A stretch of 64,000 bases of DNA from Aidingimonas lacisalsi. GTDB taxonomy: Bacteria; Pseudomonadota; Gammaproteobacteria; Pseudomonadales; Halomonadaceae. Positions 7,262-30,755 of the stretch are shown piece by piece. The notes below the pieces were generated by a model. That model saw only the letters and a list, made by a program, of their open reading frames with translations, was not told the origin of the DNA and did no database searches. Numbering within the stretch: position 1 is the stretch's first letter; every line of letters starts with the position of its first letter. The stretch is taken from assembly GCF_008079445.1 (NCBI RefSeq), contig NZ_VRYH01000009.1:1-64000 (forward strand). Direction: 5' to 3'. The translations under genes were made by a program, and so were the position numbers.

Positions 7262-7446
7262 AGCGACTGAAGTCGCTCCTACCTGGAATCAGCAGCGGGT
7301 GTTGTAGGAGCGGTTTCAACCGCGAAGCAGGGCGGTGAGCCCTGCTTGGGAGGCACCGCTGATCGCGACTGAAGTCGCTCCTACGAACCCCCGTGCCCGG
7401 AGATGTAGGAGCGGTTTCAACCGCGATGCAGGGCGATAAGCCCTGC
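7262..7446. repeat. REP-like elements, copy 6 (double)
   Basis: Order: closing palindrome, opening palindrome, middle hairpin GCAGGGC/GCCCTGC, closing palindrome, opening palindrome, second middle hairpin GCAGGGCgataaGCCCTGC. The remaining 210 bases up to the autotransporter gene hold no gene that can be supported. Confidence 0.85.
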
Positions 7447-7656
7447 CTCTCATTTGCCTGTCCGTCTCTTTATGCCTCCGGTACTTGACTGTGCGTCTCG
7501 ATATGCCGGAGAGGCGTTGCTCCCCTTCGGGCCGGTTGCTAAGTTGCCGAATCTCCAGTACCCCCATGACCGCGTCGTAAACGCGCTCGAGGCTACCCAC
7601 CATACGATCGATTAACGACTAAATGACAAGATTGGTAACGCAGGGGCATTCACTAC

Positions 7657-10761: not shown

Positions 10762-10865
10762 ATGATTAGTTATGATGAGGCATTGAACCGGTACTCGACG
10801 ATTCGTTTCGACATGACGGGAGGTCGGGATGCAATGCACTGGCTGGCATGCATGAGGTGATAACC

Positions 10866-13229: not shown

Positions 13230-14657
13230 TCACAGCAATTTGCCGGGATTGAACAGCCCTTGCGGGTCCAGCGCCGCCTTGATGCGTTCCATCATCGCCA
13301 GGGCGACGGGGTCCTGGTAGCGGCGCAATTCGGTCCGCTTGGAAAGCCCGATACCATGCTCTGCCGAAATCGAGCCGTTCATGTCGGCGACCAGGTCGTG
13401 TACGGCGCGGTTGAACTGCGGTGTCAGGTCCATGAAGGCGGCAGTATCCATGGCCTCGGGCTGGCTGACGTTGAAGTGGAGGTTGCCGTCACCGACATGG
13501 CCGAAGGCGCAAATGCGGCATGCCGGAAGGATCGACCGGCAGGCGGCGCTGGCGGCCTCGATGAAATCCGCGATACGCGATACCGGTACGGAGATGTCGT
13601 GCTTGATCGAGGCGCCTTCGGCGATCTGGGCTTCCGCGACTCCTTCACGCAGCCGCCACAACGCCTGTGATTGCGTGCTGCTCGTAGCGATGACGGCATC
13701 CTTGATCACGTCGTTCTCGAAGGCGTCGGCCAGGGCCGCTTCCAGACGCGTATTCAGATCGAGTCCGGCATCCGGAGTCGTCAGCTCGATCAGCGCGTAT
13801 GACGCATAGCTCTGGTCGAAGGGCGCGCGTGCCCCCTGAATGTGGGACAGCACGGCGTCCATCGCAAAGCGCGGCAGGAATTCGAAGGCCGTCAATGTAT
13901 CGCTGAGTTGGCCCCGCAACTGGTCGTACAATGCCAGCACCTGATGCGGAGAGTCGCAGCCGACCAGCGCGGTGGCTGTCACTCGCGGCATGGGAAACAA
14001 CTTGAGCACCGCAGCCGTGATGATGCCCAGCGTGCCCTCGGAGCCGATGAAGAGTTGCTTGAGATCGTAACCGGTGTTGTCCTTGCGCAAGGCGGTCAAT
14101 CCGTTCATGACGCGGCCATCGGCCAGCACCACTTCCAGCCCGAGCACCAGGTCACGGGCATTGCCATAGCGCAGCACATTGATGCCGCCGGCATTCGTGG
14201 CCAGATTCCCGCCGATCTGACACGATCCCTCGGCGGCCAGCGATAGCGGAAACAGACGCCCGGCGTCATGGGCGGCGTCTTGCACCACCTGCAGGATACA
14301 GCCCGCCTCCACGGTGATGGTGGCATTGGTGGGATCGATGTCGCGAATCCGACTCATGCGTCCCAGTGCCACGACGAGGCTTTGCTGCGGTACGCCGCCT
14401 CCCACCAGCCCGGTGTTCCCGCCTTGCGGTACCAACGGCACGCCATGCGCGCGACACTGCTCGACGATGAAGGCGACATCGGCGGTGCAGGCCGGCAAGA
14501 TCACGGCCAATGCATCCCCTGGATACAGCCGACGCTGTTCCTGGACATAAGGCAGCATGTCGGCAGCGTCGGTCAGTACGTAGTCGGCCCCGAGTCGATG
14601 GACCAGCGTGTCGAGCAACTCGTCGGCGATCGGCTGTCGGTTCAGGGCGTCGGGCAT
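13230..14657 (-). CDS. FAD-linked D-2-hydroxyacid dehydrogenase (GlcD family)
   Basis: A 475-residue flavoenzyme of the GlcD/D-lactate/D-2-hydroxyglutarate dehydrogenase group. The FAD-binding PCMH domain includes PQGGNTGLVGGG (77-88) and GSEGTLGI. The C-terminal cap carries AFGHVGDGNLHFNV with metal-ligand histidines and SAEHGIGLSKR. Such enzymes oxidise D-2-hydroxy acids to 2-oxo acids and pass electrons to the respiratory chain. There is no GlcE/GlcF partner nearby, which favours a stand-alone enzyme. It is the last gene of the leftward set headed by the LarA homologue, so the D-isomer produced by that racemase is an attractive substrate. Confidence 0.85.
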   Translation of the reverse strand: MPDALNRQPIADELLDTLVHRLGADYVLTDAADMLPYVQEQRRLYPGDALAVILPACTADVAFIVEQCRAHGVPLVPQGGNTGLVGGGVPQQSLVVALGRMSRIRDIDPTNATITVEAGCILQVVQDAAHDAGRLFPLSLAAEGSCQIGGNLATNAGGINVLRYGNARDLVLGLEVVLADGRVMNGLTALRKDNTGYDLKQLFIGSEGTLGIITAAVLKLFPMPRVTATALVGCDSPHQVLALYDQLRGQLSDTLTAFEFLPRFAMDAVLSHIQGARAPFDQSYASYALIELTTPDAGLDLNTRLEAALADAFENDVIKDAVIATSSTQSQALWRLREGVAEAQIAEGASIKHDISVPVSRIADFIEAASAACRSILPACRICAFGHVGDGNLHFNVSQPEAMDTAAFMDLTPQFNRAVHDLVADMNGSISAEHGIGLSKRTELRRYQDPVALAMMERIKAALDPQGLFNPGKLL

Positions 14658-14696: not shown

Positions 14697-16376
14697 TCAA
14701 CCGCGCTTGGCGAGACGTAGTCGGGTGATGGTGGTTCGCGTCGAGATGCGTTCGGGATCGGTGCGCAACTCGATGACCGCCGGGCGGTGTGCCTCGATGG
14801 CACCCTGCAGCGCCGGCAGGAATTCGTCGGTGCGGTTGACCATGGCCGTGTAAGCCCCCATGCCCGCCGCCATCGTGAGGAAATCCGGATTGACCAGGTC
14901 GGTGCCGACCACGCGCTCCGGATGCTCACGCTCCTGATGCATGCGGATGGTGCCGTAGGTGCCGTTGTTGAAGAGCAATACGATCGGGCGCCCGCCATGG
15001 TGTACGGCGGTGGCCAGTTCCTGGCCGCTCATCATGAAACCGCCATCGCCGACGAAGGCGAGCACCACCCGCTCAGGATCCTGCAGTGAGGCCGAGACGG
15101 CGGCCGGTACGGAGTAGCCCATGGCGCCGCACGTGGAGCCCAACTGACGGCCGGGGCGGCCGTAACGCAGATAGCGTTGGGCCCAGCCGGTATGGTTGCC
15201 GGCGTCGAGCGTGATGACCGTGTCGGCGGGGAGTTGATCGCGCACGGCCATCATGGCTTGACCGATATTGAGCGGTCCGTCTTCATCCGAGCTGCTGATA
15301 TCGTCGAAATACGCTTGCCGGGCCTGCCGACGCCATTCGCTCCAACGCTCGGCGAGTTGTTCCCAGCGGCAGTCTCTCAGTGCGCGCGCGACCCGTTCCG
15401 GGGCCGCTGCTATGCCGATCTCGGGGCTGTAGACGCGGCCGATTTCATCGCTGTCACCATGGATATGGATCAGCGTCTGGTTGGCGACGGGGGGTGTCAA
15501 GGTCGTGTATGTCTTCGTGGTCATTTCCCCGAGCCGTGCACCAATCACGAGCAGTAGATCCGCCTCGGCAATGCGCTTGACCAATTGGGGCGAACTCGCG
15601 GTTCCGAAGTCGCCGATATAGACGTCAGAGCGGTTGTTCACGATGTCCTGGCGGCGGAACGAGCATGCCACCGGCAGGTCGTGTGCTTCGGCGAAGGCCG
15701 TGATGTCGCGGCAGGCCGTATCATCCCAGCCACTACCGCCGACCAGCAGCAATGGCCGTCTTGCTGACGATAGCGCCTCGCGGATGCGCGTCAGGTCGGC
15801 AGCGCCGATGTCGGCACGCGTGGGGCGATAGGGAGGGGCATCCACCGTATCGACGACATCGGTCAGCATGTCTTCAGGCAGTGCCAGCACGACCGGGCCC
15901 GGCCGGCCCGATGTCGCGATACGGAAGGCGCGTGCCATGTATTCGGGAATCCGCGCCGCATCATCGATCTGCGCTACCCACTTGGCGATGCTGCCGAACA
16001 TTTGCTGGTAGTCGATCTCCTGGAACGCTTCACGGTCCCGTGAGGGGCGATCCACCTGGCCGATCAACAGGATCATGGGCGTGGAATCCTGCTGGGCGAT
16101 GTGGACCCCGATCGAGGCATGGCAGGCACCGGGGCCGCGTGTCACCAGGCAGATGCCCGGCTTGTCGGTCAACTTGCCGTATGCCTCGGCCATGTTGGCG
16201 GCACCGGCTTCATGGCGTGCGTTGTAGAGGCTGATGCGATCCCGGACATCATGCAGCGCATCCAGGACTTCGAGATAACTTTCGCCCGGAACGCAGTAAG
16301 CGGATTCGACGCCGTGGATCAGCAACTGATCGACAAGCACCTGACCGCCGGAACGAGGGCGGAGAGACTGAGACAT
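14697..16376 (-). CDS. Thiamine diphosphate-dependent enzyme (acetolactate synthase-like)
   Basis: A 559-residue ThDP enzyme with the three standard domains. The catalytic glutamate lies in NARHEAGAA (Glu56), the central FAD/NAD-like domain at about 190-330, and the ThDP motif VGDGGFMMSG with a following NNGTYG about 30 residues on. It resembles large acetolactate synthase subunits but sits in a catabolic island with no small subunit, so glyoxylate carboligase-, oxalyl-CoA- or 2-oxoacid decarboxylase-like chemistry is likelier. The ATG at 16376 with GGGAG upstream is preferred. The longer frame to 16490 covers an intercistronic hairpin. Part of the leftward transcription unit. Confidence 0.83.
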   Translation of the reverse strand: MSQSLRPRSGGQVLVDQLLIHGVESAYCVPGESYLEVLDALHDVRDRISLYNARHEAGAANMAEAYGKLTDKPGICLVTRGPGACHASIGVHIAQQDSTPMILLIGQVDRPSRDREAFQEIDYQQMFGSIAKWVAQIDDAARIPEYMARAFRIATSGRPGPVVLALPEDMLTDVVDTVDAPPYRPTRADIGAADLTRIREALSSARRPLLLVGGSGWDDTACRDITAFAEAHDLPVACSFRRQDIVNNRSDVYIGDFGTASSPQLVKRIAEADLLLVIGARLGEMTTKTYTTLTPPVANQTLIHIHGDSDEIGRVYSPEIGIAAAPERVARALRDCRWEQLAERWSEWRRQARQAYFDDISSSDEDGPLNIGQAMMAVRDQLPADTVITLDAGNHTGWAQRYLRYGRPGRQLGSTCGAMGYSVPAAVSASLQDPERVVLAFVGDGGFMMSGQELATAVHHGGRPIVLLFNNGTYGTIRMHQEREHPERVVGTDLVNPDFLTMAAGMGAYTAMVNRTDEFLPALQGAIEAHRPAVIELRTDPERISTRTTITRLRLAKRG

Positions 16377-16466
16377 GGTAGTGACACTCCCAATGGACAA
16401 TTCGGGATAGACCGGGGACTGTGCGATACGCGGCGGCAGTGGCCGAGGTTGCGCACGGTCCCCGGG

Positions 16467-16497
16467 CCTCGGGACGGCTGTCGTCAGCATCCCGAGG
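16467..16497 (-). other. Intercistronic hairpin between TRAP permease and ThDP enzyme genes
   Basis: A perfect 8-bp stem, CCTCGGGA/TCCCGAGG, with a 15-base loop just after the permease stop. It has no T-run, so mRNA stabilisation or partial attenuation is likelier than full termination. Confidence 0.45.
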
Positions 16498-16509: not shown

Positions 16510-18402
16510 TCATTGCCGTGGCGACTCGTACAGATCCTGATCGCTCTTCGTGGTGAGAGACTGCCTGTTGAGCAGTATCGGCAGCATGCTGATCAGTAGC
16601 ACCAGACTACCGCCGAGAGTGACTCGCCAATCGGGATAGATGAAGCTGATGGCAGTGCCGAAGAGCAGGAACTGTTGCCAGCGCCGTAGCGGCGCGAACA
16701 TGTACCGTTGTAGTGCTGCGGCCAGCACAATGACGCCGATGGTGGCCTGCGTCAGCACCAGTGCGATGCGCAGCGGTTCTCCCTGCAGCAGGATGGTCGG
16801 TTCATAGACGAACATGAACGGCACGATGAAACCGGCGGCGCCCAGTTTGAGGGCCTCGATGCTCGATTCCCATATCTTGGCTTTCGACAGTGTATTGGCC
16901 GCGTAGACCGCCATGGCTACCGGAGGCGTGATGGCGGACAGGATGGCAAAGTAGAACACGAACAGGTGGGCGGCTTCGGCTTGCACGCCGAGTTTGGTCA
17001 GGGCCGGGACCAGCAGGGCGACCTGGACGATGTAGGCCGGCGTGGTCGGCATGCCCATGCCCAGGATGATACCCGCCACCATACTGAGCAGCAGGGCCAG
17101 TACCAGGATGTCCTGTGAAGCCGAAATGACGAAGTTCGAGAAGCTCAGGCCGATGCCGGTGATGTCGATCACGCCGACGACGATGCCGGCGCAGGCACAG
17201 GCGGCGGCGATCGGTAATACGTTCCTCGCCCCGTTTTCCAGTGCATCGATGGTGTTGCGCAGCGTGACGTAGTGGCGGGTCGTCTTGCGCAGAAACGCGG
17301 TAGGGATCACCGAGGCGATACCGCACATGGCGGAGTAGGGCGCAGAGTAACCGAGCACCAGGGCGCCGATGATGACGACCAGCGGAATGAACAGGTGGCC
17401 GCGTTCCTTGAGGACGCGCCCTAGTGGCACTTGATCCTCTTCAGGCACGCTGCCGACATTGTTGCGTTTGGCCGCGAAATGGATGCCGAAGAACAGGGCG
17501 ACATAGAACAGCACGGCAGGTGTAATGGCATACATCGCCACTTTGAGATAGCCGGTGCCGAGATACTCGGCCATGACGAAGGCCGCTGCGCCCATGACCG
17601 GTGGCATGATCTGCCCCCCCGTCGAGGCGACGGCTTCCGTGGCACCGGCAAAGGCCGGCCGGAATCCCATGCGCTTGATCAAGGGAATGGTGAAGGTGCC
17701 GGTCGTCATGACATTGGCAACGGCCGAGCCGGACACGGAGCCGAACATGCCGCTGGTGACGCAGGCGACCTTGGCGGGACCGCCGGCCTGGCGTCCTGTC
17801 AGTGCGACGGCGAAATCCATGAACAACTGACCGATCCCCATGCGCTCGACAAGGGCGCCGAAGATGATGAACAGCACCATGTAGGTTGCCGAGACGGCGA
17901 TCGGGATACCGAAGATGCCTTCCGTGGTGATGGCGAGCTGTTCGAGCACGACGGTAGGTAGCGTATTGGTTGCTGTAAAGGCGTAGACCAGAAAGCAGAT
18001 GGCGGTAATCGGTAGCGCCGGTCCGATCGCTCGCCTGGCGGCTTCCAGCACCAGGATCACGAGGGTGATGGAGGCGATGATGTCACGCGTGGTCAGCGGG
18101 TCGACATAGATGAAGCGCGAGAAGATGTAGTCCAGATTCAAGCTGGGGTATAGCGCTGCAAACAGGCCTATGACCGCCAGTATCATGTCGTACCAGGGCG
18201 GTATGGTGACAGATTCGCGTCGGTAGTTGCTGGTCAGGAAAATCAGGGAAACGGCCAGCGCAACATGGATGCCGCGCAGTATGTAAGGGCCTGGCGTTCC
18301 GGCCAGCGCGATATAGATATGGTATAGCGACATACCGACCAGGATGACCTTGATCGATAGTCCGAAAACCCGGGCATAGAGCGACGTTGAGGTGTGGCGC
18401 AC
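16510..18402 (-). CDS. TAXI-type TRAP transporter fused permease (DctQM)
   Basis: A 630-residue integral membrane protein with about 16-18 hydrophobic segments, the length expected for the fused small and large permease subunits of TAXI-TRAP systems. Signature stretches include SGSAVANVMTTGTFTIP, ASTGGQIMPPVMGAAAF and GMGMPTTPAYI. It drives sodium-coupled uptake of an organic acid delivered by the binding protein encoded directly upstream. Halophiles often use this transporter type. The cargo is probably the hydroxy or sugar acid handled by the neighbouring LarA homologue and dehydrogenases. Separated from the binding-protein gene by a strong hairpin. Confidence 0.93.
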   Translation of the reverse strand: MRHTSTSLYARVFGLSIKVILVGMSLYHIYIALAGTPGPYILRGIHVALAVSLIFLTSNYRRESVTIPPWYDMILAVIGLFAALYPSLNLDYIFSRFIYVDPLTTRDIIASITLVILVLEAARRAIGPALPITAICFLVYAFTATNTLPTVVLEQLAITTEGIFGIPIAVSATYMVLFIIFGALVERMGIGQLFMDFAVALTGRQAGGPAKVACVTSGMFGSVSGSAVANVMTTGTFTIPLIKRMGFRPAFAGATEAVASTGGQIMPPVMGAAAFVMAEYLGTGYLKVAMYAITPAVLFYVALFFGIHFAAKRNNVGSVPEEDQVPLGRVLKERGHLFIPLVVIIGALVLGYSAPYSAMCGIASVIPTAFLRKTTRHYVTLRNTIDALENGARNVLPIAAACACAGIVVGVIDITGIGLSFSNFVISASQDILVLALLLSMVAGIILGMGMPTTPAYIVQVALLVPALTKLGVQAEAAHLFVFYFAILSAITPPVAMAVYAANTLSKAKIWESSIEALKLGAAGFIVPFMFVYEPTILLQGEPLRIALVLTQATIGVIVLAAALQRYMFAPLRRWQQFLLFGTAISFIYPDWRVTLGGSLVLLISMLPILLNRQSLTTKSDQDLYESPRQ

Positions 18403-18512: not shown

Positions 18513-19463
18513 TTACAGTGCGTCGTGTTCGCGGTAGAACGCTTCCGCGGCGGGATGCAGCGGCACGCCGATGTCGGTGGCCATGTCTTCAGGCGTCAGA
18601 TCCTTCATGGCCTGACTGATATCGCCGAGAGAGTCCGTGTTCTCGACCACAGCCTCCAGAAAGGCGGTGACGATCTCGTCATCGAAATCACACTGGGCGA
18701 TCATGTGCGTGTCATAGGTGATGGCCGGCACATCCTCATCCACGCCCGGGTAGCTGCCCGCGTGAACCATGCGTTTCTGGAAGGCGGCGTTCTGCTCCTT
18801 GAACTGATCGAAGGTCGCGTCGTCGATCGGTACGAAGCTGATGTCACGGCTATTGGCCAGGTCCATCACCGAACCGGCAGGCAGGGCGGTACCGAGCGTG
18901 AAGATATCGGCGTGACCATCCTTCATGGCGATGACCGAATCGGAATATGACAGGTGGCTGACACTCTCTAGATCGTCGTAGCTCAAGTCGTTGGTATCCA
19001 GCAGGCCGCGCGTGAGCATCTCGCCGGTGTGACCATTCTGTTGCGTGGTGAGACGCTTGCCTTCGAAATCGGCGACGGATTCGACCTCGGCGTCGTCAAG
19101 CGCCATGACCTGGAAATACTGTGGATAGAGCGTGCCGAGGTTGCAGACGTTGTCGATGGCTTTGTTGAAGGGATCTCTGCCATTGATGCCATCGACCGTG
19201 GAGATGGAGTTGGCGAAGGCGATCGGGAAGCGCCCATTGGCCACACCCTGGACGTTGGCGAGGCCGGAACCTGGTGTCACCGTGATGGAAACATCATCGA
19301 CCTTGTCTTCAACGACGGCTTTCAGTGCCCCTCCGATCGGATACCAGGATCCTCCCTGTGACCCGGTCGAGAGGGTGAAATCCTGGGCCTGAGCCATGGA
19401 AACCGCAGTGACACTCAGGGCAGCGATTGTTGTCATGGAGGCGTGCTTACCCAGTTTGAACAT
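18513..19463 (-). CDS. TAXI family TRAP transporter substrate-binding protein
   Basis: A periplasmic receptor of 316 residues. The signal peptide covers residues 1-26 (MFKLGKHASMTTIAALSV, cut after AQA). The mature protein opens with FTLSTGSQGGSWYPIGGAL, the hallmark TAXI ligand-site segment. The ATG at 19463 is chosen because AGGAG lies eight bases upstream. The GTG at 19478 overlaps that ribosome site. A promoter with TTGACA and a 17-base spacer lies about 100 bases upstream, inside the gap after the dehydrogenase gene, so the transporter has its own start. The substrate is not readable from sequence. Confidence 0.92.
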   Translation of the reverse strand: MFKLGKHASMTTIAALSVTAVSMAQAQDFTLSTGSQGGSWYPIGGALKAVVEDKVDDVSITVTPGSGLANVQGVANGRFPIAFANSISTVDGINGRDPFNKAIDNVCNLGTLYPQYFQVMALDDAEVESVADFEGKRLTTQQNGHTGEMLTRGLLDTNDLSYDDLESVSHLSYSDSVIAMKDGHADIFTLGTALPAGSVMDLANSRDISFVPIDDATFDQFKEQNAAFQKRMVHAGSYPGVDEDVPAITYDTHMIAQCDFDDEIVTAFLEAVVENTDSLGDISQAMKDLTPEDMATDIGVPLHPAAEAFYREHDAL

Positions 19464-19559
19464 GACGTTACTCCTCACTTCTTGTCTTAGTTCGGTGCTG
19501 CACTGTCTTCATTGAGCTTGTTCAGTGCAGGTGTGAGCCTCGTTCAGCAAGGCAATTTT

Positions 19560-19639: not shown

Positions 19640-20605
19640 TCATTCCTCCGACGTGGCCAGGTGGCTCGGTTGAGCCCCGGAAAAATGCTGTATCAGATGC
19701 TCCACGCTCTGAAGGGCCATCGCATTGCGCGTCTCGACGGTGGCACTTGCCCGATGAGCCGACAGCACGACGTTATCCAGCGTCAGCAGAGCATCGTTGA
19801 TGCGGGGCTCATCGGCGAACACATCGAGGCCGGCTCCGAGCAATTCACCACGTTCGAGCCGGGCGATCAGGGCGCTCTCATCGACGAGCACGCCACGTCC
19901 CACGTTGACGACGATACCGTCCGGACCAAGTGCGGCCAGCACGTTGTCGTCGACCAAGGCCCGCATGCCGGGGGAGCTGGCGGCGGCCACCATCAGGACA
20001 TCGCTCCAGGCGGCCAGTCGTTGCAGGTCCGGTTCGAACGCATAGGACACATCCTCTCTGGGTGTCCGGTTGGTATAGGCGATTTCCATACCGAAGGCTT
20101 CCGCCCGTGTCGCGATGGCCTGGCCGATACGACCGAGTCCGAGTATGCCGAGACGTTTGCTCGTCAGGCTGCGGGTCAAGGGAGGCTGCTTGCCTTGTGC
20201 CCAATGCCCCGCCTTGACGAAATCGTGTCCTTGCGGCAGGCGCCGAAGCGTCGACATCATGAGTCCGAAACCCATGTCGGCGACATCCGCGGTCAGCACG
20301 TCCGGGGTATAGGCGATGCGCAGGCCCTTGCGCTGGGCGTGATCGATATCGACCCGATCGAGACCGACGCCGTGCAGCGAGATGATCTCGAGGTTGGTCA
20401 ACCGTTCCGCTTGCTCCGGTGTCAGCCCGATGTTGGCACCCGTCAGGACGCCCCTGGCGGTGTCCGCATGGTCGTGCATGGCGCGTTCGGGTGTCGGGCT
20501 ATCCCATAGGTGGACGACGTTGAAATGTTCCTCGAGTCGCTCCATACCGGGGTCGGCGATACGTTGCAACAGAAGAACTTCGGGCTTGGAGGCTTGTTCT
20601 GTCAT
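19640..20605 (-). CDS. D-2-hydroxyacid dehydrogenase, NAD(P)-dependent
   Basis: A 321-residue member of the D-isomer-specific 2-hydroxyacid dehydrogenase family (glyoxylate/hydroxypyruvate reductase-like). The nucleotide-binding GLGRIG lies in LGILGLGRIGQAIA near residues 153-166. Catalytic residues fit VNVGRG (Arg), DVFADEP (Glu) and SAHRAS (His). It begins 12 bases after the LarA homologue ends, so the two are almost certainly co-translated. A nickel racemase interconverting stereoisomers next to a strictly D-specific dehydrogenase makes a natural two-step entry: racemise, then oxidise. Direction and substrate are inference. Confidence 0.88.
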   Translation of the reverse strand: MTEQASKPEVLLLQRIADPGMERLEEHFNVVHLWDSPTPERAMHDHADTARGVLTGANIGLTPEQAERLTNLEIISLHGVGLDRVDIDHAQRKGLRIAYTPDVLTADVADMGFGLMMSTLRRLPQGHDFVKAGHWAQGKQPPLTRSLTSKRLGILGLGRIGQAIATRAEAFGMEIAYTNRTPREDVSYAFEPDLQRLAAWSDVLMVAAASSPGMRALVDDNVLAALGPDGIVVNVGRGVLVDESALIARLERGELLGAGLDVFADEPRINDALLTLDNVVLSAHRASATVETRNAMALQSVEHLIQHFSGAQPSHLATSEE

Positions 20606-20617: not shown

Positions 20618-21946
20618 TCAATGAGTGTCGAAATGCTGATGCCAGAGCGAGGTCATCAGCTCGCCTTGCGCGTTGAACTGAAGTGTCTGCGGAGGGCCTA
20701 TCGGTTCCGCCATGCCGTCGGGGATATCGTCCAGCAGGGCGGGAGATACCATGATCCGGTCCAGGTGCAGGGTGGTCGAGATCATGCAGAACCGGGCGTC
20801 TTCATCGTTGAGCGCCCACGACGTGGTGACGGCAGCCGCGATCACGTCCCGTTCGGTCGGCAGCACGATGGGGATGCGTGACTTATCCACCAGGGTGGCC
20901 GTCAGCGCATTCATGTAGGTGGCCTTGAAGTCGACGGCTTCGGCGGCCGCTCGGGTCGTGAAATCGGCCATGCCGATACCGACGGCGTTGCCCGCGGTCT
21001 CCTTGGTCAGGTTCAGCAACCCCAGTTTATGGATGAACGGCGTTGCGGGGTTGTCGATGCCGCGGATGTCGGTGCGTCCCGTGACGGCAAAGTCCATCCC
21101 CGTGCCGCTGATCTCCTTGCCGCTGCGTTCGACGATCAGTACATCGGCCTGAGTGATGGGCAGACGCGGAAGGTAGGATTTGGCCTCCTTGAGCAGGCGT
21201 TCGTCGGTTGCCATGATGGCGTCGGGTTCGGCCCCTTCGAGGTGCACGATATCCTTGTTGGCGTTCTCGACCAGGCCGATGCCGAGCGTGATGGGCGCAT
21301 TGGCCAGGGCGATGCGTGCCAGGTTGGGCAGTACGTCGGAGAGGCCGCGCGGGCCGAGTTTGTGCACGCGTCGCGCCCCTTCGGCCTTGCCCAGCCCGAC
21401 GGCGATCATCTTGGTCAAGCCGCTTTCGATGGGGCGGTCGAACGTCGTGTGGGATTTGATACGGTTGACGATGATGATGCCGTCCGCGTCGGCGGCATTG
21501 CGATCGAACTTGCATTCGATGCCTTCCGCCGTCTTGCCGTATTCGACGACGTCCATCGTGGCGTGCACGGGAGCGCCCACGCTGGCTTCGGTGATGCCCA
21601 GCTTGGCCAGCACCGCTTCCTGACCTTCGGCCGTGCCGCCGCCATGGCTGCCCATGGCCGGAACGATGAACGGTGTATGCCCCAGTGATTGAAGTTCGGA
21701 CACGACAGCCGTGATGACCTCGACGAGCGCGGCGATGCCGCGGCTTCCGACACCGACCGCGACACGGCTGCCGGGGGCGAGCCGTGCGACTTGACGGCTT
21801 TCTCGCACCACCTGCCGGGTACGTCGGTCGATATCGGACACCGGCGTGCCTAGTCGGTGATTGAGTCGAACGGGGATGACTCGGGGCAGTCTGACCTCGG
21901 CCAGGTGGGGGAACTCGACGTCGGGAAAGCTGGCATGCTGGCCCAT
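20618..21946 (-). CDS. LarA-family nickel-pincer-dependent hydroxyacid racemase/epimerase homologue
   Basis: A 442-residue DUF2088/LarA-type enzyme. The family interconverts stereoisomers of 2-hydroxy acids by hydride transfer to the nickel-pincer nucleotide. Candidate catalytic residues keep the LarA order and spacing: His101 (GSHGGG), His166 (RIKSHTTF), Lys179 (SGLTKM, the cofactor-attaching lysine) and His195 (RRVH), with Arg69 for substrate. The sequence is otherwise far from lactate racemase, and its context (aldonate dehydratase, aldolases) suggests a sugar-acid epimerase or another hydroxyacid. The start at 21946 has AAGGAG upstream. The longer frame to 22072 runs into the regulator gene. 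Divergent from gntR. The cofactor genes larC, larE and larB are encoded nearby. Confidence 0.85.
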   Translation of the reverse strand: MGQHASFPDVEFPHLAEVRLPRVIPVRLNHRLGTPVSDIDRRTRQVVRESRQVARLAPGSRVAVGVGSRGIAALVEVITAVVSELQSLGHTPFIVPAMGSHGGGTAEGQEAVLAKLGITEASVGAPVHATMDVVEYGKTAEGIECKFDRNAADADGIIIVNRIKSHTTFDRPIESGLTKMIAVGLGKAEGARRVHKLGPRGLSDVLPNLARIALANAPITLGIGLVENANKDIVHLEGAEPDAIMATDERLLKEAKSYLPRLPITQADVLIVERSGKEISGTGMDFAVTGRTDIRGIDNPATPFIHKLGLLNLTKETAGNAVGIGMADFTTRAAAEAVDFKATYMNALTATLVDKSRIPIVLPTERDVIAAAVTTSWALNDEDARFCMISTTLHLDRIMVSPALLDDIPDGMAEPIGPPQTLQFNAQGELMTSLWHQHFDTH

Positions 21947-22007
21947 TTCGGTCTCCTTATTGTGGTGTTCGAGCAACGCTGTTAACACGCTTGCTGTTGG
22001 ACGTGTA

Positions 22008-22042
22008 TCTTGTATGATAAGAATATAAATCGCATTTTGTAA
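22008..22042. promoter_or_regulatory. Divergent larA/gntR control region
   Basis: TCTTGTATGATAAGA (22008-22022) is a short inverted repeat. On the minus strand TTACAA (22037-22042), a 17-base spacer and TATCAT (22014-22019) form a candidate larA promoter whose -10 lies inside the repeat. A plus-strand promoter for gntR may use TTGCTG at 21991 and TATGAT at 22013. One bound repressor could block both. Confidence 0.55.
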
Positions 22043-22059
22043 GTCATGAGTGAGAGAGA

Positions 22060-22797
22060 ATGAAAGAGCCATCTGGATTCCGTGCCGTTCGCAAGACCGT
22101 CAGCTTGAGCGATCAAGTGACGGATGAACTTCGCAGCATGGTGACATCCGGTGACCTCGAGGTGGGGGAGCTACTGCCTTCCGAGAGCACACTGGCCAAG
22201 AAACTGGGCGTCAGTCGCACCGTGGTTCGTGAAGCTGTGTCTCGCTTGAAGGTGGATGGCTTGTTGAGCAGCCAGCAGGGGCGAGGGGTGTTCGTGGTAT
22301 CGACACGCCCGGATCGCGGGTTCTCCATGCGTGGCCATGATGCGCAGAGCATCGAGCATGTGCTGCGCATGGTGGAGTTACGCATGGGGTTCGAGGTCGA
22401 GGCTGCGGCGTTTGCCGCCGAGCGACGTACCCGCCACGACTTGACGATGATGCGCGATGCTCAGAATTCGTTTCAGGAAGCGGTGGCGTCGGGCGACATT
22501 CAGGCCGGGGTCGATGCGGATATGGCGTTCCATCGGGCTGTCTGTACCGCCACCGACAACGAGCTGTATCTCGAGTTTTTCAACTATCTGAGCAGTTATC
22601 TCAAGGAAACGATCCTGGTGTCGCGGCGCAAGGCAGCGACCCGTGTCGATGGCGGGCAGGCCCCCATCGCCGAGCACCAGACCCTGATCGATGCCATCGC
22701 CGATCAGGATGTCGATGCCGCCCGGATTGCCGCGAGATATCACATCGAGTGCAACATGCACCGCCTGAAGACGTACTACGGCGTCATGAATCCGTAG
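22060..22797 (+). CDS. GntR family regulator, FadR subfamily (FCD domain)
   Basis: A 245-residue repressor/activator. The N-terminal winged helix (about 15-80) contains LPSESTLAKKLGVSRTVVREAVSRL. The C-terminal all-helical FCD ligand domain (about 95-230) retains Asp and His residues suited to binding a metal and a carboxylate (DADMAFHRAV, IAEHQTLI, AARYHIECN). FadR-type regulators commonly sense hydroxy or sugar acids. It is divergent from the LarA homologue and 33 bases upstream of larC, hence at the centre of the island, and is the most likely controller of all its units. The effector is probably the imported acid or a keto-deoxy intermediate. Confidence 0.9.
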   Translation: MKEPSGFRAVRKTVSLSDQVTDELRSMVTSGDLEVGELLPSESTLAKKLGVSRTVVREAVSRLKVDGLLSSQQGRGVFVVSTRPDRGFSMRGHDAQSIEHVLRMVELRMGFEVEAAAFAAERRTRHDLTMMRDAQNSFQEAVASGDIQAGVDADMAFHRAVCTATDNELYLEFFNYLSSYLKETILVSRRKAATRVDGGQAPIAEHQTLIDAIADQDVDAARIAARYHIECNMHRLKTYYGVMNP

Positions 22798-22830
22798 CGT
22801 GCCTACGCGATAACGAGGATGGAGCTCGCC

Positions 22831-24027
22831 ATGCAGCGAAAGCGCTTGATTCGGATCGATCCGCTCGGTGGCGTTGCCGGTGACATGATGGTCGCCGCGC
22901 TGCTGGATGCGTTTCCTGAACATGAACCGGCGCTGGCGGACTCGCTGGCGTGTTTGCGCTTGCCGGCCGCGGTGAACTGGCGTGTCGAGCCGGGGACGTT
23001 TGCGGGATTTCAAGGCAAACGGTTCCGCGTCGAGGCCGCAAGCGAACGGGCGGCCCATAGCCACCATCATTATCCCGATCTCGTCGAGCGCATCGGCCAT
23101 TGCGGGCTGCCGCAGGGTGTTGCACGCCGAGCGCTGGATATCTATGCGCTGCTGGCGGATGCCGAGGCGACCGTTCACGGGACGACCCGCGAACAGGTGG
23201 CGTTCCATGAGGTCGGCGCCTGGGACTCGGTGATCGATGTCGTGGCGGTTGCCACGCTGCTTGAGGCCATCGGGGAAACCAAGTGGTTGTGCGGTTCTCT
23301 CCCCTTGGGGAGTGGCCAGGTGCCTACCGATCACGGCTGGGTGCCGGTGCCGGCACCCGCGACGGCCCAGCTTCTTGACGGGATGCCGGTGCATGACGAT
23401 GGGCTCGGCGGGGAGCGCATCACCCCGACCGGGGCGGCCATTCTGCGCCATCTCGACTGTCGTTTCGATACCCGCTGCAGTGGACGACTGCGCGATACCG
23501 GCATGGGATTCGGCACGCGGGAACTGCCTGACCGGGCCAATGCCCTGCGTTTGCTGGTGCTCGAGGCGACGGCCAACGACGCCGGATGCGTACATGACCG
23601 GGTCATTCGGGCAACCTTCGATATCGATGACCAGACACCGGAAGACATCGCGATTGCCGTCGATATCCTGCGTGACACGGCCGGTGTGCTGGATGTCACG
23701 CTGGCGACCCGGGCAGCGAAAAAGGGGCGGGTCGGTTTTCAGGTCGAACTGCTGGCGCAGCCCGAGTGTTTCGACGACATCCTGGCGGCGTGTTTTCGCC
23801 AGACCACGACGCTCGGCATTCGCTATCACGAGATCGAGCGCGCGCTGCTGACCAGAGAACATGGCGAAGCCACTACCAGCCAGGGACAGGTCCGCATCAA
23901 GACGGCATCCCGGCCATCCGGTGCTACCCGTAAAGCCGAGGCGGATGACATCGCTCGACTGCGGGAGTCTCAACAGCGTCGACAGCAGGTCAGGCGTGAA
24001 GCCGAACAGGCAGGGGAGGAGCCGTGA
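22831..24027 (+). CDS. larC: LarC, nickel insertion enzyme for the nickel-pincer cofactor
   Basis: A CTP-dependent nickel insertase completing the nickel-pincer nucleotide used by LarA enzymes. The 398-residue protein opens with IRIDPLGGVAGDMMVAALLD, has a His-rich metal-handling stretch (AAHSHHHYPD near 68-77), the FHEVGAWDSVIDVVAVA block and the C-terminal ferredoxin-like region. The gene is one uninterrupted frame, unlike Lactobacillus plantarum where larC is split and joined by frameshifting. The ATG at 22831 has GGAG six bases upstream. The ATG at 22819 is less well placed. It is followed by larE, whose start overlaps its stop. Confidence 0.93.
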   Translation: MQRKRLIRIDPLGGVAGDMMVAALLDAFPEHEPALADSLACLRLPAAVNWRVEPGTFAGFQGKRFRVEAASERAAHSHHHYPDLVERIGHCGLPQGVARRALDIYALLADAEATVHGTTREQVAFHEVGAWDSVIDVVAVATLLEAIGETKWLCGSLPLGSGQVPTDHGWVPVPAPATAQLLDGMPVHDDGLGGERITPTGAAILRHLDCRFDTRCSGRLRDTGMGFGTRELPDRANALRLLVLEATANDAGCVHDRVIRATFDIDDQTPEDIAIAVDILRDTAGVLDVTLATRAAKKGRVGFQVELLAQPECFDDILAACFRQTTTLGIRYHEIERALLTREHGEATTSQGQVRIKTASRPSGATRKAEADDIARLRESQQRRQQVRREAEQAGEEP

Positions 24028-24842
24028 TGTGCGTACCCGCCGCACTGCATGATGCCTTGCAGACACCCGAAATGCTGGTCATAGCCGTCAGCGGTGGCGT
24101 GGATAGCCTGACCCTGGCAGCGGCCGCCCGTCGGGTCCGGGGCCGGGAGAACGTGACGCTCTGCCATGCGCTGTCGCCGGCCGTGCCGGGGGATGCCTCA
24201 GCCCGGGTCCGGCGGCTTGCCGGCCAATGGCAGTTGCAGCTCGAGGTCATCGATGCGGGGGAGTTCGACGATCCCGATTATCTCCGTAATCCCGTCAATC
24301 GCTGTTATTACTGCAAGACTCACCTGTACCACACGATGTCGCGCCTGCAGGCGCATTTCCAGGGGACGTCCCTGACGATGGCCTCGGGAACCAATACTGA
24401 CGACCTGGGTGATTATCGTCCCGGTCTGATCGCCGCGAGCGAGCATGGGGTGTTCCATCCATTCGTGGATGCGGGTATGGACAAGGCTGCGGTTCGCGCG
24501 CTGGCGCACTCGTTGGGTCTGACCGATATCGCGCGTCTACCCGCCGCGCCCTGTCTGTCGAGCCGTGTCGAGACGGGGCTGGCGGTCGAGGCCGATACGC
24601 TGCTGATGGTGGATGCGATCGAAAAATCGGTACGTGACCGGCTGGGCAACATCACGGTGCGGTGCCGCGTTCGTCATTCGGAATACTGCATCGAGCTGGG
24701 CGACGCATCGTTCGAATCGCTGAGCCCGGCCATGCAGCGGCAATTGCTGTCTCAGGCCAGACGCATCATGGCGGATCATGGGCGTGAAGCGCCCGTTACC
24801 CTGGAAGCCTATCAACAAGGGAGCGCTTTTCTGCATGGCTGA
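24027..24842 (+). CDS. larE: LarE, ATP-dependent sulfur transferase
   Basis: Converts the two carboxylates of the pyridinium dicarboxylate nucleotide into thiocarboxylates. The 271-residue PP-loop protein carries VSGGVDSLTL (residues 21-30) for adenylation. Cys176 in APCLSSR is the position of the sacrificial cysteine of the L. plantarum enzyme. Two more cysteines form RCYYCK (Cys93, Cys96), the three-cysteine pattern linked to iron-sulfur-cluster-type LarE that transfers sulfur catalytically. The ATG at 24027 overlaps the larC stop and has AGGAG five bases upstream. The GTG at 24024 is too close to that site. Overlaps larB by eight bases. Confidence 0.93.
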   Translation: MCVPAALHDALQTPEMLVIAVSGGVDSLTLAAAARRVRGRENVTLCHALSPAVPGDASARVRRLAGQWQLQLEVIDAGEFDDPDYLRNPVNRCYYCKTHLYHTMSRLQAHFQGTSLTMASGTNTDDLGDYRPGLIAASEHGVFHPFVDAGMDKAAVRALAHSLGLTDIARLPAAPCLSSRVETGLAVEADTLLMVDAIEKSVRDRLGNITVRCRVRHSEYCIELGDASFESLSPAMQRQLLSQARRIMADHGREAPVTLEAYQQGSAFLHG

Positions 24843-25497
24843 TGAACAGATTGTCCGTTTCGATCGCAATCGAGCCTCTCGTATCGGGTTGGAGGAGGCG
24901 GTCTTTGCGCAATCCAAGACGCCGGATCGCATTGCCGCGATCGTCGATGAGGCCGTCGCGGAGGAGCGCCGCTTGCTCATTACCCGCATCAGCCAGCAGT
25001 GCTGGGAGGCCCAACCTGCGCACATTCAGCAGATTCTCGATTATGACTCGCTGTCCAGCACGGCCGTGTTGGGTGACATGCCGTCCCCTCGGGATGCGCC
25101 GGCCATCGCCATCGTCACGGCCGGTACGGCGGATGCGCGAGTCGCTGCCGAAGCGCGGCGCACGCTCGAATATAACGGCTATGCCGTCGATGTGGTCAGC
25201 GACGTGGGCGTGGCCGGCCTGTGGCGGCTGCTCGACCATGTCGAGCGGCTGGAGGCCGTCCCCATCAAGCTGGTGTTCGCCGGCATGGACGCTGCCTTGC
25301 CCAGTGTCGTCGCCGGCCTGGTATCGGGAAGCATCATCGCGGTACCGACGTCGGTGGGCTATGGCGTCGCTGACGGTGGTCGAGCAGCCCTGGATTCGGC
25401 GTTGTCCAGCTGTGCTCCGGGCGTGACCGTGGTGAATATCGATAACGGATACGGGGCGGCCTGTGCCGCCATCCGGATTCTAGGAAGCCAGTCGTGA
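24835..25497 (+). CDS. larB: LarB, nicotinate dinucleotide carboxylase/hydrolase
   Basis: First enzyme of nickel-pincer cofactor synthesis. LarB carboxylates the pyridinium ring of nicotinic acid adenine dinucleotide and releases AMP. The 220-residue protein has a PurE-like C-terminal domain, with IAIVTAGTADARVAAEARRT at about 93-112 and the loop VPTSVGYGVADGG. The ATG at 24835 lies inside the end of larE with GGGAG upstream. Order larC-larE-larB with overlapping ends marks a tightly coupled cofactor operon directly followed by catabolic genes. Confidence 0.93.
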   Translation: MADEQIVRFDRNRASRIGLEEAVFAQSKTPDRIAAIVDEAVAEERRLLITRISQQCWEAQPAHIQQILDYDSLSSTAVLGDMPSPRDAPAIAIVTAGTADARVAAEARRTLEYNGYAVDVVSDVGVAGLWRLLDHVERLEAVPIKLVFAGMDAALPSVVAGLVSGSIIAVPTSVGYGVADGGRAALDSALSSCAPGVTVVNIDNGYGAACAAIRILGSQS

Positions 25498-25528: not shown

Positions 25529-26311
25529 ATGCCTGCCACCTTACCCAAGAACCGCTTCAAGTCGTTGTTGAACGAACAGGCGCAGATCGGTATATGGAGC
25601 ACCTTGTGTTCCAACATCGTGATCGACGCCCTGAGCGATTCCGGATTCGATTGGGTGCTGTTGGACACCGAGCATTCACCGAATGAACTCCCCAATGTCG
25701 TGACACAACTGCAGGCGTTGGCGGGAACCCAGACCGCGGCTGTCGTACGCCCGGCCTGGAACGATCCGGTTCTCATCAAGCGCTTTCTCGACATCGGGGC
25801 GCAGACCTTGCTGATTCCCTTCGTGCAGACGGCGGAAGAGGCCGAACGCGCGGTCGCGGCAGTTCGCTATCCCAACCAGGGTATCCGCGGCGTGGCTGCT
25901 GCCCATCGTGCCAACCGCTATGGCCGCGTGCCTGACTATGTCCACCGGGCCAATGACGAGCTGTGCCTGATCGTGCAGGTCGAGACGTCGAGCGCGATCG
26001 ACAATATTCCCGCCATTGCCGCGGTGGAAGGGGTCGATGCCATTTTCATCGGTCCTTCCGATCTCGCCGCCGACCTGGGGCATATCGGTGAAGCCGGACA
26101 TGTCGACGTGCAACGGGAGATCGCCAGGGGCCTGGCACTGTGCAGTGAGCACCGACTGCCGGCGGGCATCCTCGCGCCCGTGCAGGAACAGGCGGAACAA
26201 TGGCTCGATGCCGGCTTTGCGTTCATTGCGGTGGCCTCGGACATGGGGCTGTTGACTCGCCAGGCCGATGCCAGGGCGGATCATTTCAAGGCCTTGGTTG
26301 CCAATCGTTAA
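25529..26311 (+). CDS. HpcH/HpaI family class II aldolase
   Basis: A 260-residue metal-dependent aldolase related to GarL, RhmA and HpcH, which split 2-keto-3-deoxy (di)acids into pyruvate and an aldehyde. Visible motifs are FDWVLLDTEHSPNE near residues 35-48, IVQVETSSAIDNI (metal-ligand Glu) and FIGPSDLAADLG (metal-ligand Asp). It could act on the 5-dehydro-4-deoxy-glucarate from the garD-like enzyme or on a keto-deoxy product of the IlvD/Edd enzyme encoded next. AAGGAG precedes the ATG. It starts 31 bases after larB, likely in the same transcript. Confidence 0.88.
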   Translation: MPATLPKNRFKSLLNEQAQIGIWSTLCSNIVIDALSDSGFDWVLLDTEHSPNELPNVVTQLQALAGTQTAAVVRPAWNDPVLIKRFLDIGAQTLLIPFVQTAEEAERAVAAVRYPNQGIRGVAAAHRANRYGRVPDYVHRANDELCLIVQVETSSAIDNIPAIAAVEGVDAIFIGPSDLAADLGHIGEAGHVDVQREIARGLALCSEHRLPAGILAPVQEQAEQWLDAGFAFIAVASDMGLLTRQADARADHFKALVANR

Positions 26312-26381: not shown

Positions 26382-26431
26382 ATAAGCAGACGAGTTGAAT
26401 GTCGCGTCTCCTAGCTGTTTCAGGACATGTC

Positions 26432-28174
26432 ATGACGATCAACAACAGAAAACGCCCCGATACCTTACGGAGTGCCCGCTGGTATGCGCCCGACGACCTG
26501 CGTTCCTTCGGTCATCGCTCGCGGGCCATGCAGATGGGCCGGGAACCGAGTGATTGGGAAGCCCGGCCGCAGATTGCCATCATCAATACCTGGTCCGATA
26601 TCAATCCCTGCCATGCGCATTTCAAGCACCGCGTAGACGATGTCCGTCGTGGGATTCTCGAAGCCGGCGGTTTTCCTATCGAGCTACCCGCGCTCTCTCT
26701 CGCCGAGAACTTCGTGAAACCGACCACCATGCTGTATCGCAACATGCTGGCCATGGAAGTCGAGGAGCTACTGCGCTCGCACCCCGTGGACGGCGTGGTG
26801 TTGATGGGGGGGTGCGACAAGACCACGCCGGGCTTGGTATTGGGTGCGGTCAGTGCAGGACTCCCTGCGATTTTCGTGCCGGCCGGCCCGATGCTGCGTG
26901 GCAATTGGCAGGGCAATGTCCTGGGCAGTGGCTCGGATGCCTGGAAGTATTGGGATGAACGCCGCGCCGGCAACATCTCGCGTGACGAGTGGATCGCCAT
27001 TGAAGGCGGGATTGCCCGTTCCTATGGCCACTGCATGACGATGGGAACGGCCAGCACCATGACCGCGATAGCTGAAGCCATGGGCCTGACGTTGCCGGCG
27101 GCCAGTTCGATTCCCGCCGCAGATGCCAACCATATACGCATGTGTGCGGCCTCGGGGCGTCGAGTCGTCGCCATGGTCTGGGAAGACCTGACCCCGGATC
27201 GAATCATCACGCCGGCGGCGGTCAACAATGCCGTCACCGTCGCCATGGCGACGGGATGTTCGACGAATGCGGTCATCCACTTGATTGCCATGGCCCGCCG
27301 CGCGGGCATCGACATGACGCTGGATGATTTCGATCAGGCCAGCCGTGATATTCCCGTCATCGCCAATGTGCGACCGAGCGGCGAGCACTATCTCATGGAG
27401 GACTTTTACTACGCGGGGGGTCTACGTGCGTTGATGACCCGTCTGACCGATTATCTGGCGCTCGACGCCTTGACGGTGGCCGGTGAGCCCCTGGGCGAGA
27501 CGTTGCAGGGTGCCGAAGTCTACAACGATGAGGTGATACGCCCCTTGTCGAATCCGGTGTATCGGGAAGGGTCACTGGCGGTATTGCGTGGCAATCTGGC
27601 TCCCGATGGGTGCGTGATCAAGCCCGCCGCCTGCGACCCCAGGTTTCATGACCATACGGGGCCTGCCCTGGTATTCGATAGTTACCCCGAAATGAAGGCG
27701 GCCATCGACGACGACGATCTGGATGTCACGGCCGACCATGTGATGGTGCTTCGCAACGTGGGGCCCTTGGGAGGGCCGGGGATGCCCGAGTGGGGCATGC
27801 TGCCGATTCCGACCAAGCTCGTTAAGCAGGGCGTGCGCGACATGCTGCGCCTTTCCGATGCCCGCATGAGCGGTACGAGTTATGGCGCCTGCATGCTGCA
27901 CGCCGCCCCCGAAGCGGCGGCCGGCGGGCCGTTGGCGCTGTTGAGAACCGGCGACATGGTCCACGTCGATATTGCGCAGCGGCGTCTTTCCATGGATGTC
28001 TCGGACGAGGAACTGGCGCGTCGCCGCGCTGAATGGACGCCCCCCAGGCCGGCCTTCGCCCGAGGCTATGGCTGGATGTTTGCGCAACACATCAAACAGG
28101 CGAACGAAGGCTGTGACTTCGACTTTCTGGAGACCGATTTCGGTCCTGCCGTGGGCGAGCCCGATATTTATTAA
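26432..28174 (+). CDS. IlvD/Edd family sugar-acid dehydratase (L-arabinonate dehydratase-like)
   Basis: A 580-residue iron-sulfur dehydratase that removes water from an aldonate to give a 2-keto-3-deoxy acid. Cluster cysteines are Cys60 (INPCHAHF), Cys128 (GGCDKTTPG) and Cys201 (YGHCMTMG). Lys130 fits the carbamylated lysine of the pentonate dehydratases. Length and pattern match L-arabinonate/D-xylonate/D-fuconate dehydratases better than IlvD or Edd. The start at 26432 has AGGA upstream. The ATG at 26399 has no ribosome site and lies next to the operator-like repeat. The substrate may be an epimer made by the LarA homologue. Followed by an RraA-like gene after 14 bases. Confidence 0.88.
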   Translation: MTINNRKRPDTLRSARWYAPDDLRSFGHRSRAMQMGREPSDWEARPQIAIINTWSDINPCHAHFKHRVDDVRRGILEAGGFPIELPALSLAENFVKPTTMLYRNMLAMEVEELLRSHPVDGVVLMGGCDKTTPGLVLGAVSAGLPAIFVPAGPMLRGNWQGNVLGSGSDAWKYWDERRAGNISRDEWIAIEGGIARSYGHCMTMGTASTMTAIAEAMGLTLPAASSIPAADANHIRMCAASGRRVVAMVWEDLTPDRIITPAAVNNAVTVAMATGCSTNAVIHLIAMARRAGIDMTLDDFDQASRDIPVIANVRPSGEHYLMEDFYYAGGLRALMTRLTDYLALDALTVAGEPLGETLQGAEVYNDEVIRPLSNPVYREGSLAVLRGNLAPDGCVIKPAACDPRFHDHTGPALVFDSYPEMKAAIDDDDLDVTADHVMVLRNVGPLGGPGMPEWGMLPIPTKLVKQGVRDMLRLSDARMSGTSYGACMLHAAPEAAAGGPLALLRTGDMVHVDIAQRRLSMDVSDEELARRRAEWTPPRPAFARGYGWMFAQHIKQANEGCDFDFLETDFGPAVGEPDIY

Positions 28175-28188: not shown

Positions 28189-28914
28189 ATGTCAGAAACG
28201 ACCCTTACGACACAGACACGCGAAAAGCTGATGGGCGTCAGTACGGCCACCTTGAGTACGGCGCTATTCAAGCGTGGGTTGCGCAATCAGTTCATTCAGG
28301 AGGTAAGCCCTCTCGATCCCGAGAAACCCAATATGGTGGGAGAGGCGTTCACGCTCCGGTATATCCCCGCCAGGGAGGATCTCAACCCCATCACGGTCTT
28401 CCAGGATCCTGACCATCCTCAACGCGCCGCCGTCGAGCAGTGTCCTGCCGGCGGGGTGATGGTCATCGACAGTCGACGCGATCCTCGCGCGGCGTCGGCG
28501 GGATCCATCCTCATTTCACGAATGATGGTGCGGGGAGTGGCCGGTGTCGTGACGGACGGCGGTTTTCGCGACTCGCCGGAGATCGCCGGACTGGAGATTC
28601 CGGCGTATCACCAGCGTCCGTCCGCGCCGACCAACCTGACGCTCCACCAGGCGATCGGCATCAATGTGCCGATCGGTTGCGGCGATGTCCCTGTCTTCCC
28701 CGGCGATGTCATCGTCGGAGACAGTGAGGGAGTGATTGTCATACCGGCACATCTCGCCGATGAAATCGCTGATGAGGCCGTTGAAATGACAGCATTTGAA
28801 GACTTCGTCACGGAAGAGGTCCTGGCCGGTCGATCCATCATCGGTCTGTACCCACCGACGAAGCAGCAGAGCAAGGATGATTTTGCGGCCTGGCGACAAC
28901 GTCAGGGCCGATAA
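28189..28914 (+). CDS. RraA-like / HMG aldolase family protein
   Basis: A 241-residue protein of the RraA/4-hydroxy-4-methyl-2-oxoglutarate aldolase fold. The core shows GGVMVIDSRRDP, GSILISRMMVRGVAGVVTDGGFRDS and GDVIVGDSEGVIVIP. Members of this type are often encoded next to arabinonate dehydratases and are labelled RNase regulators only by homology. Here an aldolase or oxaloacetate-decarboxylase-like activity on a keto acid is more plausible. It starts 14 bases after the dehydratase stop with AAGGAG upstream, so co-expression is likely. Arg and Asp in GGFRDS fit the pyruvate-enolate site. Confidence 0.84.
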   Translation: MSETTLTTQTREKLMGVSTATLSTALFKRGLRNQFIQEVSPLDPEKPNMVGEAFTLRYIPAREDLNPITVFQDPDHPQRAAVEQCPAGGVMVIDSRRDPRAASAGSILISRMMVRGVAGVVTDGGFRDSPEIAGLEIPAYHQRPSAPTNLTLHQAIGINVPIGCGDVPVFPGDVIVGDSEGVIVIPAHLADEIADEAVEMTAFEDFVTEEVLAGRSIIGLYPPTKQQSKDDFAAWRQRQGR

Positions 28915-28985
28915 GCACCACCGACGTTTGCCGAGGGCCGCATCGGTCCCGTGTTAATGCATTGATGATGAATCAGGAGGTAGCT

Positions 28986-29621: not shown

Positions 29622-29736
29622 CAAACCGGTGCCACCAGGATAGGCGGTTAGGGGGGCTGGTGGGAAATGGGATGGACCCGTCCCTATGCCATCGAGCCCT
29701 GGCAGTGATGGGTACCGATTCGATAAGGAGAACGTC

Positions 29737-30666: not shown

Positions 30667-30755
30667 GGCGTTGATGGAATCTTGTTTAAAGATTGAGATA
30701 CTGCCTGCTGACTATACATTGGCTAGCTGAGATTACCCGTTGCAAGGAGGCATGC

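Follow-up and report, generated by a model that had tools for sequence, protein, structure and literature searches.

LarAH22, a LarA homologue of group 22 encoded among nickel-pincer cofactor and acid-sugar genes in Aidingimonas lacisalsi

Gene content of the larAH22 locus

The window analysed here is a 64-kb stretch (positions 1 to 64,000) of contig NZ_VRYH01000009.1 of Aidingimonas lacisalsi. Its larAH22 open reading frame lies at 20618–21946 on the minus strand and encodes a 442-residue product that starts at the ATG at 21946, with a TAAGGAG box just upstream; a longer form starting at the ATG at 22072 would have 484 residues but overlaps the divergent gntR gene. On the minus strand larAH22 is followed by genes for a D-2-hydroxyacid dehydrogenase, a TAXI protein, a TRAP permease, a ThDP enzyme and an FAD oxidase, in that order, and the plus strand carries, in turn, genes for an FCD-GntR regulator, LarC, LarE, LarB, an HpcH aldolase, an IlvD dehydratase, an RraA-like protein, a nickel permease and a DHDPS-family protein. 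The cassette gene order is the same in the related loci L001–L003, except for the DHDPS gene, and the genes for GarD and the SDR oxidoreductase next to it are the outer part of one conserved cassette with the larAH22 operons. Orthologues of LarAH22 with 91–94% identity are encoded in Aidingimonas halophila, Modicisalibacter luteus and Halomonas sp. NO4. The features are listed below by their position in the window; where two scores are given, the second is the cut-off of the model.

10848–12434, plus strand: galactarate dehydratase of the UxaA/GarD family (TIGR03248, 868/731 bits; kept in L001–L003)
12473–13222, plus strand: SDR oxidoreductase adjoining GarD (PF00106, 156 bits; kept in L001–L003)
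13230–14657, minus strand: FAD-linked 2-hydroxyacid oxidase/dehydrogenase, GlcD-like (PF02913 and PF01565)
14697–16490, minus strand: ThDP-dependent decarboxylase/carboligase-like enzyme (NF006052, 791/539 bits)
16510–18402, minus strand: fused TRAP permease (TIGR02123, 605/321 bits)
18513–19478, minus strand: TAXI-type TRAP solute-binding protein (TIGR02122, 218/84 bits)
19640–20605, minus strand: D-isomer-specific 2-hydroxyacid dehydrogenase, directly downstream of larAH22 (PF02826, 162 bits; order kept in L001–L003)
20618–21946, minus strand: LarAH22, group 22 NPN-dependent isomerase, 442 residues (NF052515, Lar_N, fold, residue alignment); predicted roles H101 and H166 acid/base, K179 NPN thioamide, H195 nickel ligand, R69 phosphate
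21947–22059, no strand: putative larAH22/gntR divergent promoter/operator region (DNA alignment)
22060–22797, plus strand: FadR-type GntR regulator with FCD ligand domain (Pfam GntR and FCD; order kept in L001–L003)
22819–24027, plus strand: larC, nickel insertion for NPN (TIGR00299, 175.8/90 bits; NF052512, 99.3/50 bits; PF01969, 320 bits)
24024–24842, plus strand: larE, NPN sulfur insertase (TIGR00268, 236.6/150 bits)
24835–25497, plus strand: larB, NPN carboxylase/hydrolase (NF033503, 252.4/175 bits, the match starting at residue 28 in the longer open reading frame)
25529–26311, plus strand: HpcH/HpaI-type 2-keto-3-deoxy-aldonate aldolase (PF03328, 163 bits)
26399–28174, plus strand: IlvD/EDD acid-sugar dehydratase, L-arabinonate dehydratase type (NF009559, 1093/882 bits)
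28189–28914, plus strand: RraA-like aldolase-fold protein (PF03737; NF006093, 358.7/208 bits)
28962–29585, plus strand: HupE/UreJ-type nickel permease (PF04955, 156 bits; kept in L001–L003)
29686–30666, plus strand: DHDPS-family lyase/dehydratase (PF00701, 131.6 bits)

The larAH22/gntR intergenic region is 113 bases long and contains a block, GTGTATCTTGTATGATA, near 22003–22019 that is almost invariant in the four genomes. The FCD-GntR protein is likely to be a local acid-sensing repressor, and the HupE/UreJ permease probably supplies nickel. For larB, the internal ATG at 24835 is a more likely start than the listed one at 24778. The aldolase at 25529–26311 scores below the cut-offs of the specific GarL and HpaI models, as does the FAD oxidase with the GlcD equivalog. 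The DHDPS-family protein is possibly a 2-keto-3-deoxy acid enzyme; genes of this family also lie near those of LarAH22 relatives in five other loci (L015, L020, L023, L024 and L049). In L023 an RraA-like homologue lies near an IlvD dehydratase as well, and a 69% identical homologue of the ThDP enzyme is encoded near the group-22 gene in L067.

Elsewhere in the window, a HipA-type kinase (HipA_C and Couple_hipA domains; toxin-antitoxin-like) is encoded at 215–1477 on the minus strand, and a LuxR-type regulator followed by an 887-residue autotransporter at 6157–10320 on the plus strand. An apparent exopolysaccharide cluster (31729–58000, plus strand) comes directly after the acid-sugar operon and encodes a Wzy-like ligase, a Wza-like export protein, a Wzc-like tyrosine kinase, an ABC transporter and glycosyltransferases. 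Between it and the DHDPS-family gene lies a 275-codon open reading frame (30693–31520, plus strand) whose product matches neither a Pfam nor an NCBIfam model. Scanning the window for Rfam families and tRNAs gave no matches.

Family assignment, key residues and fold

LarAH22 matches the NCBIfam family NF052515 (nickel pincer cofactor-dependent isomerase, group 22) over positions 1–388 of 392 with 480.2 bits, against an equivalog cut-off of 400. All 23 sequences in the alignment of its relatives match this model too, and nothing excludes LarAH22 from the family, which by its name corresponds to LarA homologue group 22 of Desguin et al. 2020 (PMC7583248). The larAH22 lineage is thus an already named group, apparently without an assigned activity, and not a newly found family: no activity of any group-22 member is given in the main text of PMC7583248, in PMC11770544 or in PMC12611868. 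Supplementary Table S1 of the first of these papers may already tabulate the acid-sugar context of the group. The Pfam scores are close to the thresholds, 25.7 bits for Lar_N (cut-off 23.3) and 24.4 for DUF362 (cut-off 24.0); each model matches 21 of the 23 relatives (at E ≤ 0.01 for DUF362), the better best E-value being that of Lar_N. Scores fell far below the cut-offs of the malate-racemase (LarAH6 type) model, with 23.6 of 500 bits, and of the LarAH10 model, with 23.5 of 540. No LarA structure was matched in PDB sequence searches with either the single protein or the 23-sequence profile, which bears out the statement of the first-pass annotation that the protein is divergent from lactate racemase.

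That annotation had also placed four catalytic residues, His101, His166, Lys179 and His195, in LarA order at near-LarA spacing. All four occur exactly at these positions, and the spacing, 65/13/16 against 66/10/16 in LarA, is close apart from a three-residue insertion between the second histidine and the lysine. When the group 22 profile was aligned by hhalign with a canonical LarA profile (Halomonadaceae copies, L. plantarum and Isosphaera pallida), H101 fell unaided on H108, H166 on H174, K179 on K184 and H195 on H200, and R69 on the phosphate arginine R75. By itself this alignment has modest statistical weight (P of 0.0002 in global and 0.0008 in local mode); we accept the match because all functional residues coincide and the fold agrees. 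Among 32 group-22 proteins, which range down to about 33% identity and in which just 9% of alignment columns are invariant, H166, K179, H195, R69, S175 and G176 never vary and H101 is present in 31. This conservation, together with the unaided placement, argues that the correspondence is more than chance. Loss of the second catalytic histidine, as in LarA homologue groups 14, 15 and 17, was not seen in any of the 32.

The surroundings of these residues are only partly as different as had been supposed. The SGLTKM motif around the lysine is not alien to LarA, since it aligns with SGGRK (SGG(R/P)K in general) with SG and K invariant; its third and fourth residues do differ. Features of canonical lactate racemase that are absent include the F175/F176 pair, replaced after the second histidine by T167/T168, with T, S or A and then T, S, D, A or N, all small or polar, across group 22. 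At the position of the NPN-ribose aspartate D72, group 22 has an invariant serine (Ser68), in a loop shorter by two residues, so cofactor binding would differ in detail from that of LarA.

An AlphaFold2 model built from a seven-sequence alignment had a pLDDT of 71.7 and a pTM of 0.71; a scan of viral contigs yielded no further relatives for deepening this alignment. The N-terminal domain is well modelled, the loop at 166–174 has a pLDDT below 50, and so do most of residues 276–358, in the C-terminal substrate-binding domain, where counterparts of Y294, Q295, K298 and W358 would be expected. In Foldseek all 19 matches with E ≤ 0.001 were members of the LarA family or Thermotoga maritima 4NAR, a structure described in its deposition as a putative uronate isomerase; LarA-family chains had E-values from 6e-10 to 7e-7, and the next fold 0.02. 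VIA-align gave Z scores of 18–20 for the LarA family and 4NAR and at most 6.5 for other folds. The model thus has the two-domain fold of LarA, its C-terminal domain being poorly modelled. L. plantarum LarA (5HUQ) has a fold Z of 18.1, equivalents of H108/H174/K184/H200 and R75, and larB, larC and larE genes in common with LarAH22, which differs in its sequence (about 14% identity), its three additional substrate-loop residues, the T/T pair and the serine at the D72 position. The single-histidine LarA homologues of S. plurextorum (9Q3K) and B. wexlerae (9Q3J) are similar in fold (Z 19.5) and in a possible sugar-related role (PMC12611868), but their second catalytic histidine is replaced by asparagine, whereas LarAH22 retains the invariant His166.

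Relatives and cofactor genes

Group 22 is present in 7 of 151 Halomonadaceae genomes and 10 of 245 genomes of a second proteobacterial order, as well as on plasmids of Rhodobacterales, Bacillota, Rubrobacter and haloarchaea. Certain types of neighbour recur: IlvD and/or UxaA dehydratases together with DHDPS, RraA and HpcH proteins; a DUF1537 kinase with PdxA; UxaC with an SDR; and KDPG aldolase with KDGal kinase. Of these routes, IlvD and/or UxaA, DUF1537 kinase with PdxA, and UxaC with an SDR adjoin different clades of the group. An acid-sugar enzyme is encoded within about 10 kb at 27 of 32 group-22 loci as against 2 of 40 spaced 20-kb control stretches from two genomes, and larB/C/E nearby at 23 of 32 as against none of 40; the contrast is somewhat inflated, the markers having been picked from the loci themselves. 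In a 34-sequence tree the larAH22 branch joins those of Sulfitobacter brevis and Roseicitreum; every one of these genes has an IlvD dehydratase next to it, and the branches together form a separate, long-stemmed clade inside group 22. The group may hold several specificities, and the context of other clades need not carry over to larAH22.

The case for an NPN enzyme draws most of its strength from the combination of the adjoining larC, larE and larB, each above its model cut-off, with genome co-occurrence. The host genome encodes one Lar_N protein, LarAH22, and one LarC, side by side. Of the 151 Halomonadaceae genomes, 18 carry both Lar_N and LarC and the rest carry neither; all seven with group 22 carry LarC (hypergeometric probability 1e-7, kinship ignored), and in five of these seven the group-22 protein is the sole one with Lar_N. 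Given the residues, the fold, the adjacent cofactor genes and this co-occurrence, LarAH22 is very probably a working NPN enzyme, a prediction already made by the first-pass annotation and now strongly supported.

Proposed function of LarAH22

In LarA, one histidine on each face of C2 works as acid/base, and the hydride resides on the NPN carbon. We favour, with moderate confidence, the view that LarAH22 depends on NPN to epimerise C2 of a sugar acid, probably an aldonate, and feeds a stereospecific dehydratase; cofactor loading, activity and substrate class are inferred from the conserved residues, the gene context and the small polar loop. LarB, LarE and LarC encoded nearby would build the nickel-pincer cofactor, which would be tethered to K179 with H195 as the fourth nickel ligand. 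H101 and H166, one per C2 face, would alternate in taking and giving the proton of the 2-hydroxyl, and the NPN carbon would accept the C2 hydride and return it to the opposite face via a 2-keto intermediate. The C2 epimer would then be accepted by the nearby IlvD dehydratase, which is strict about the configuration at C2 and C3, and its product go on to the 2-keto-3-deoxy acid aldolase, the TAXI-TRAP transporter importing the acid and the FCD-GntR protein switching the divergent operons. L-Arabinonate dehydratase shows strict stereospecificity for both C2 and C3 (PMC9795676), which would leave a clear role for a C2-epimerase. The small or polar residues at the F175/F176 positions would suit a polyhydroxylated substrate; our guess at the exact one is the L-arabinonate/L-ribonate, D-galactonate/D-talonate or D-fuconate/6-deoxy-D-talonate pair.

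The larAH22 operon itself offers another reading. Its order (larAH22, D-2-hydroxyacid dehydrogenase, transporter, ThDP enzyme, FAD oxidase) could mean that LarAH22 racemises a simple 2-hydroxyacid (glycerate, lactate or malate-like) and supplies the D form to the operon's own dehydrogenase and oxidase, both of which would fit such a substrate, the sugar-acid genes being separate modules; LarA homologues that racemise glycerate and other small acids have been published (PMC11770544). This is unlikely, as the dehydrogenase/oxidase pairing is missing from most group-22 loci while the acid-sugar enzymes are kept, the malate-racemase model is far from matched, and small polar residues stand where lactate racemases have the bulky phenylalanine pair. 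Retention of both histidines for two-sided inversion (31 of 32 and 32 of 32 proteins) makes it improbable that NPN-bound LarAH22 performs a different hydride-transfer isomerisation, such as a hydride shift to the adjacent carbon in a sugar or keto acid without C2 inversion. Such reactions have been raised for homologues that lack a catalytic residue (PMC7583248), LarAH22 has changes in the substrate loop and at the D72 position, and the putative uronate isomerase 4NAR has the same fold.

DUF362 and DUF2088 belong to one Pfam clan (PMC11770544), and LarAH22 could in principle be a DUF362-type protein that works without NPN and resembles LarA through shared ancestry in that clan alone. The narrowly passed DUF362 cut-off, the 21 matching relatives and a K-x-H...K layout that may be common to DUF362 are consistent with this; yet the Lar_N cut-off is passed as well, that model matches as many relatives with the better best E-value, larB, larC and larE adjoin larAH22, LarC and Lar_N never part company in the 151 genomes, and five LarC-bearing ones have no Lar_N protein other than that of group 22, so we regard it as very improbable. 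That larAH22 is a decayed or non-catalytic copy is hardly credible: we found no support for it, and the open frame, the 91–94% identical orthologues in three genomes, the catalytic residues and the conserved divergent operon all speak against it.

Returning to the epimerase reading, the new substrate proposed by the first-pass annotation is plausible, because LarAH22 falls far short of the malate-racemase and LarAH10 cut-offs and lies in an acid-sugar catabolism context. Novelty is limited by the fact that aldonate C2 epimerisation (gluconate/mannonate) by LarA homologues is already known, having been established for the GntE D-gluconate 2-epimerases of groups 19 and 20 (PMC7583248), which share with LarAH22 the reaction proposed here. 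The four specificity positions of GntE are usually E, V, A and H (PMC11770544), in contrast to T and T at the first two in LarAH22, and the family models are different. LarAH22 is ordinary in kind and useful as a target, its activity being a prediction from sequence and context. To our knowledge, there are few NPN enzymes, most of them without an assigned substrate; the complete cassette conserved in four halophile genomes means that the substrate of LarAH22 can be sought directly. If it is an epimerase, the funnelling of C2-epimeric sugar acids into stereospecific dehydratases would be explained.

More tentatively, group 22 as a whole could be a separate acid-sugar C2-epimerising NPN branch across bacteria and haloarchaea, with a modified cofactor pocket (serine for D72, longer substrate loop), in which aldonate pairs feed IlvD or UxaA and erythronate/threonate a DUF1537 kinase with PdxA, and which accounts for some NPN genomes without LarA. 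At the DUF1537/PdxA loci the matching reaction would presumably be D-erythronate to D-threonate. Genomes with larB, larC and larE and without larA are reported to make up about 15% of those surveyed (PMC11796402). Group 22 may account for part of them, as Pfam Lar_N appears barely to detect or to miss archaeal members: four of five haloarchaeal proteins tested fall below its cut-off, and the Haloferax volcanii control genome has matches for group 22 and LarC and none for Lar_N, so that a survey relying on Pfam would count it among the NPN producers that lack LarA.

Some group-22 loci stand out in other ways. In two other Halomonadaceae genera (L050 and L054) a canonical LarA and a group-22 protein are encoded no more than about 12 kb apart, in a single cluster that they share with a DUF1537 kinase, PdxA, larE, larB, larC and a Tct-type transporter, which suggests a combined route for lactate and a four-carbon acid sugar. 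A Salinigranum marinum plasmid encodes the sole group-22 protein with tyrosine for the first catalytic histidine (MGSYGG; L019, 9001–10314, plus strand), with a nikR gene 1.4 kb downstream; its chemistry is possibly one-sided or altered. On a plasmid of Halomarina sp. BND7 (L027), about 4 kb separates two group-22 genes (3522–4922, minus strand, and 8764–10047, plus strand), which lie next to MR/MLE-type dehydratases and a sugar ABC transporter, and these paralogues perhaps differ in substrate.
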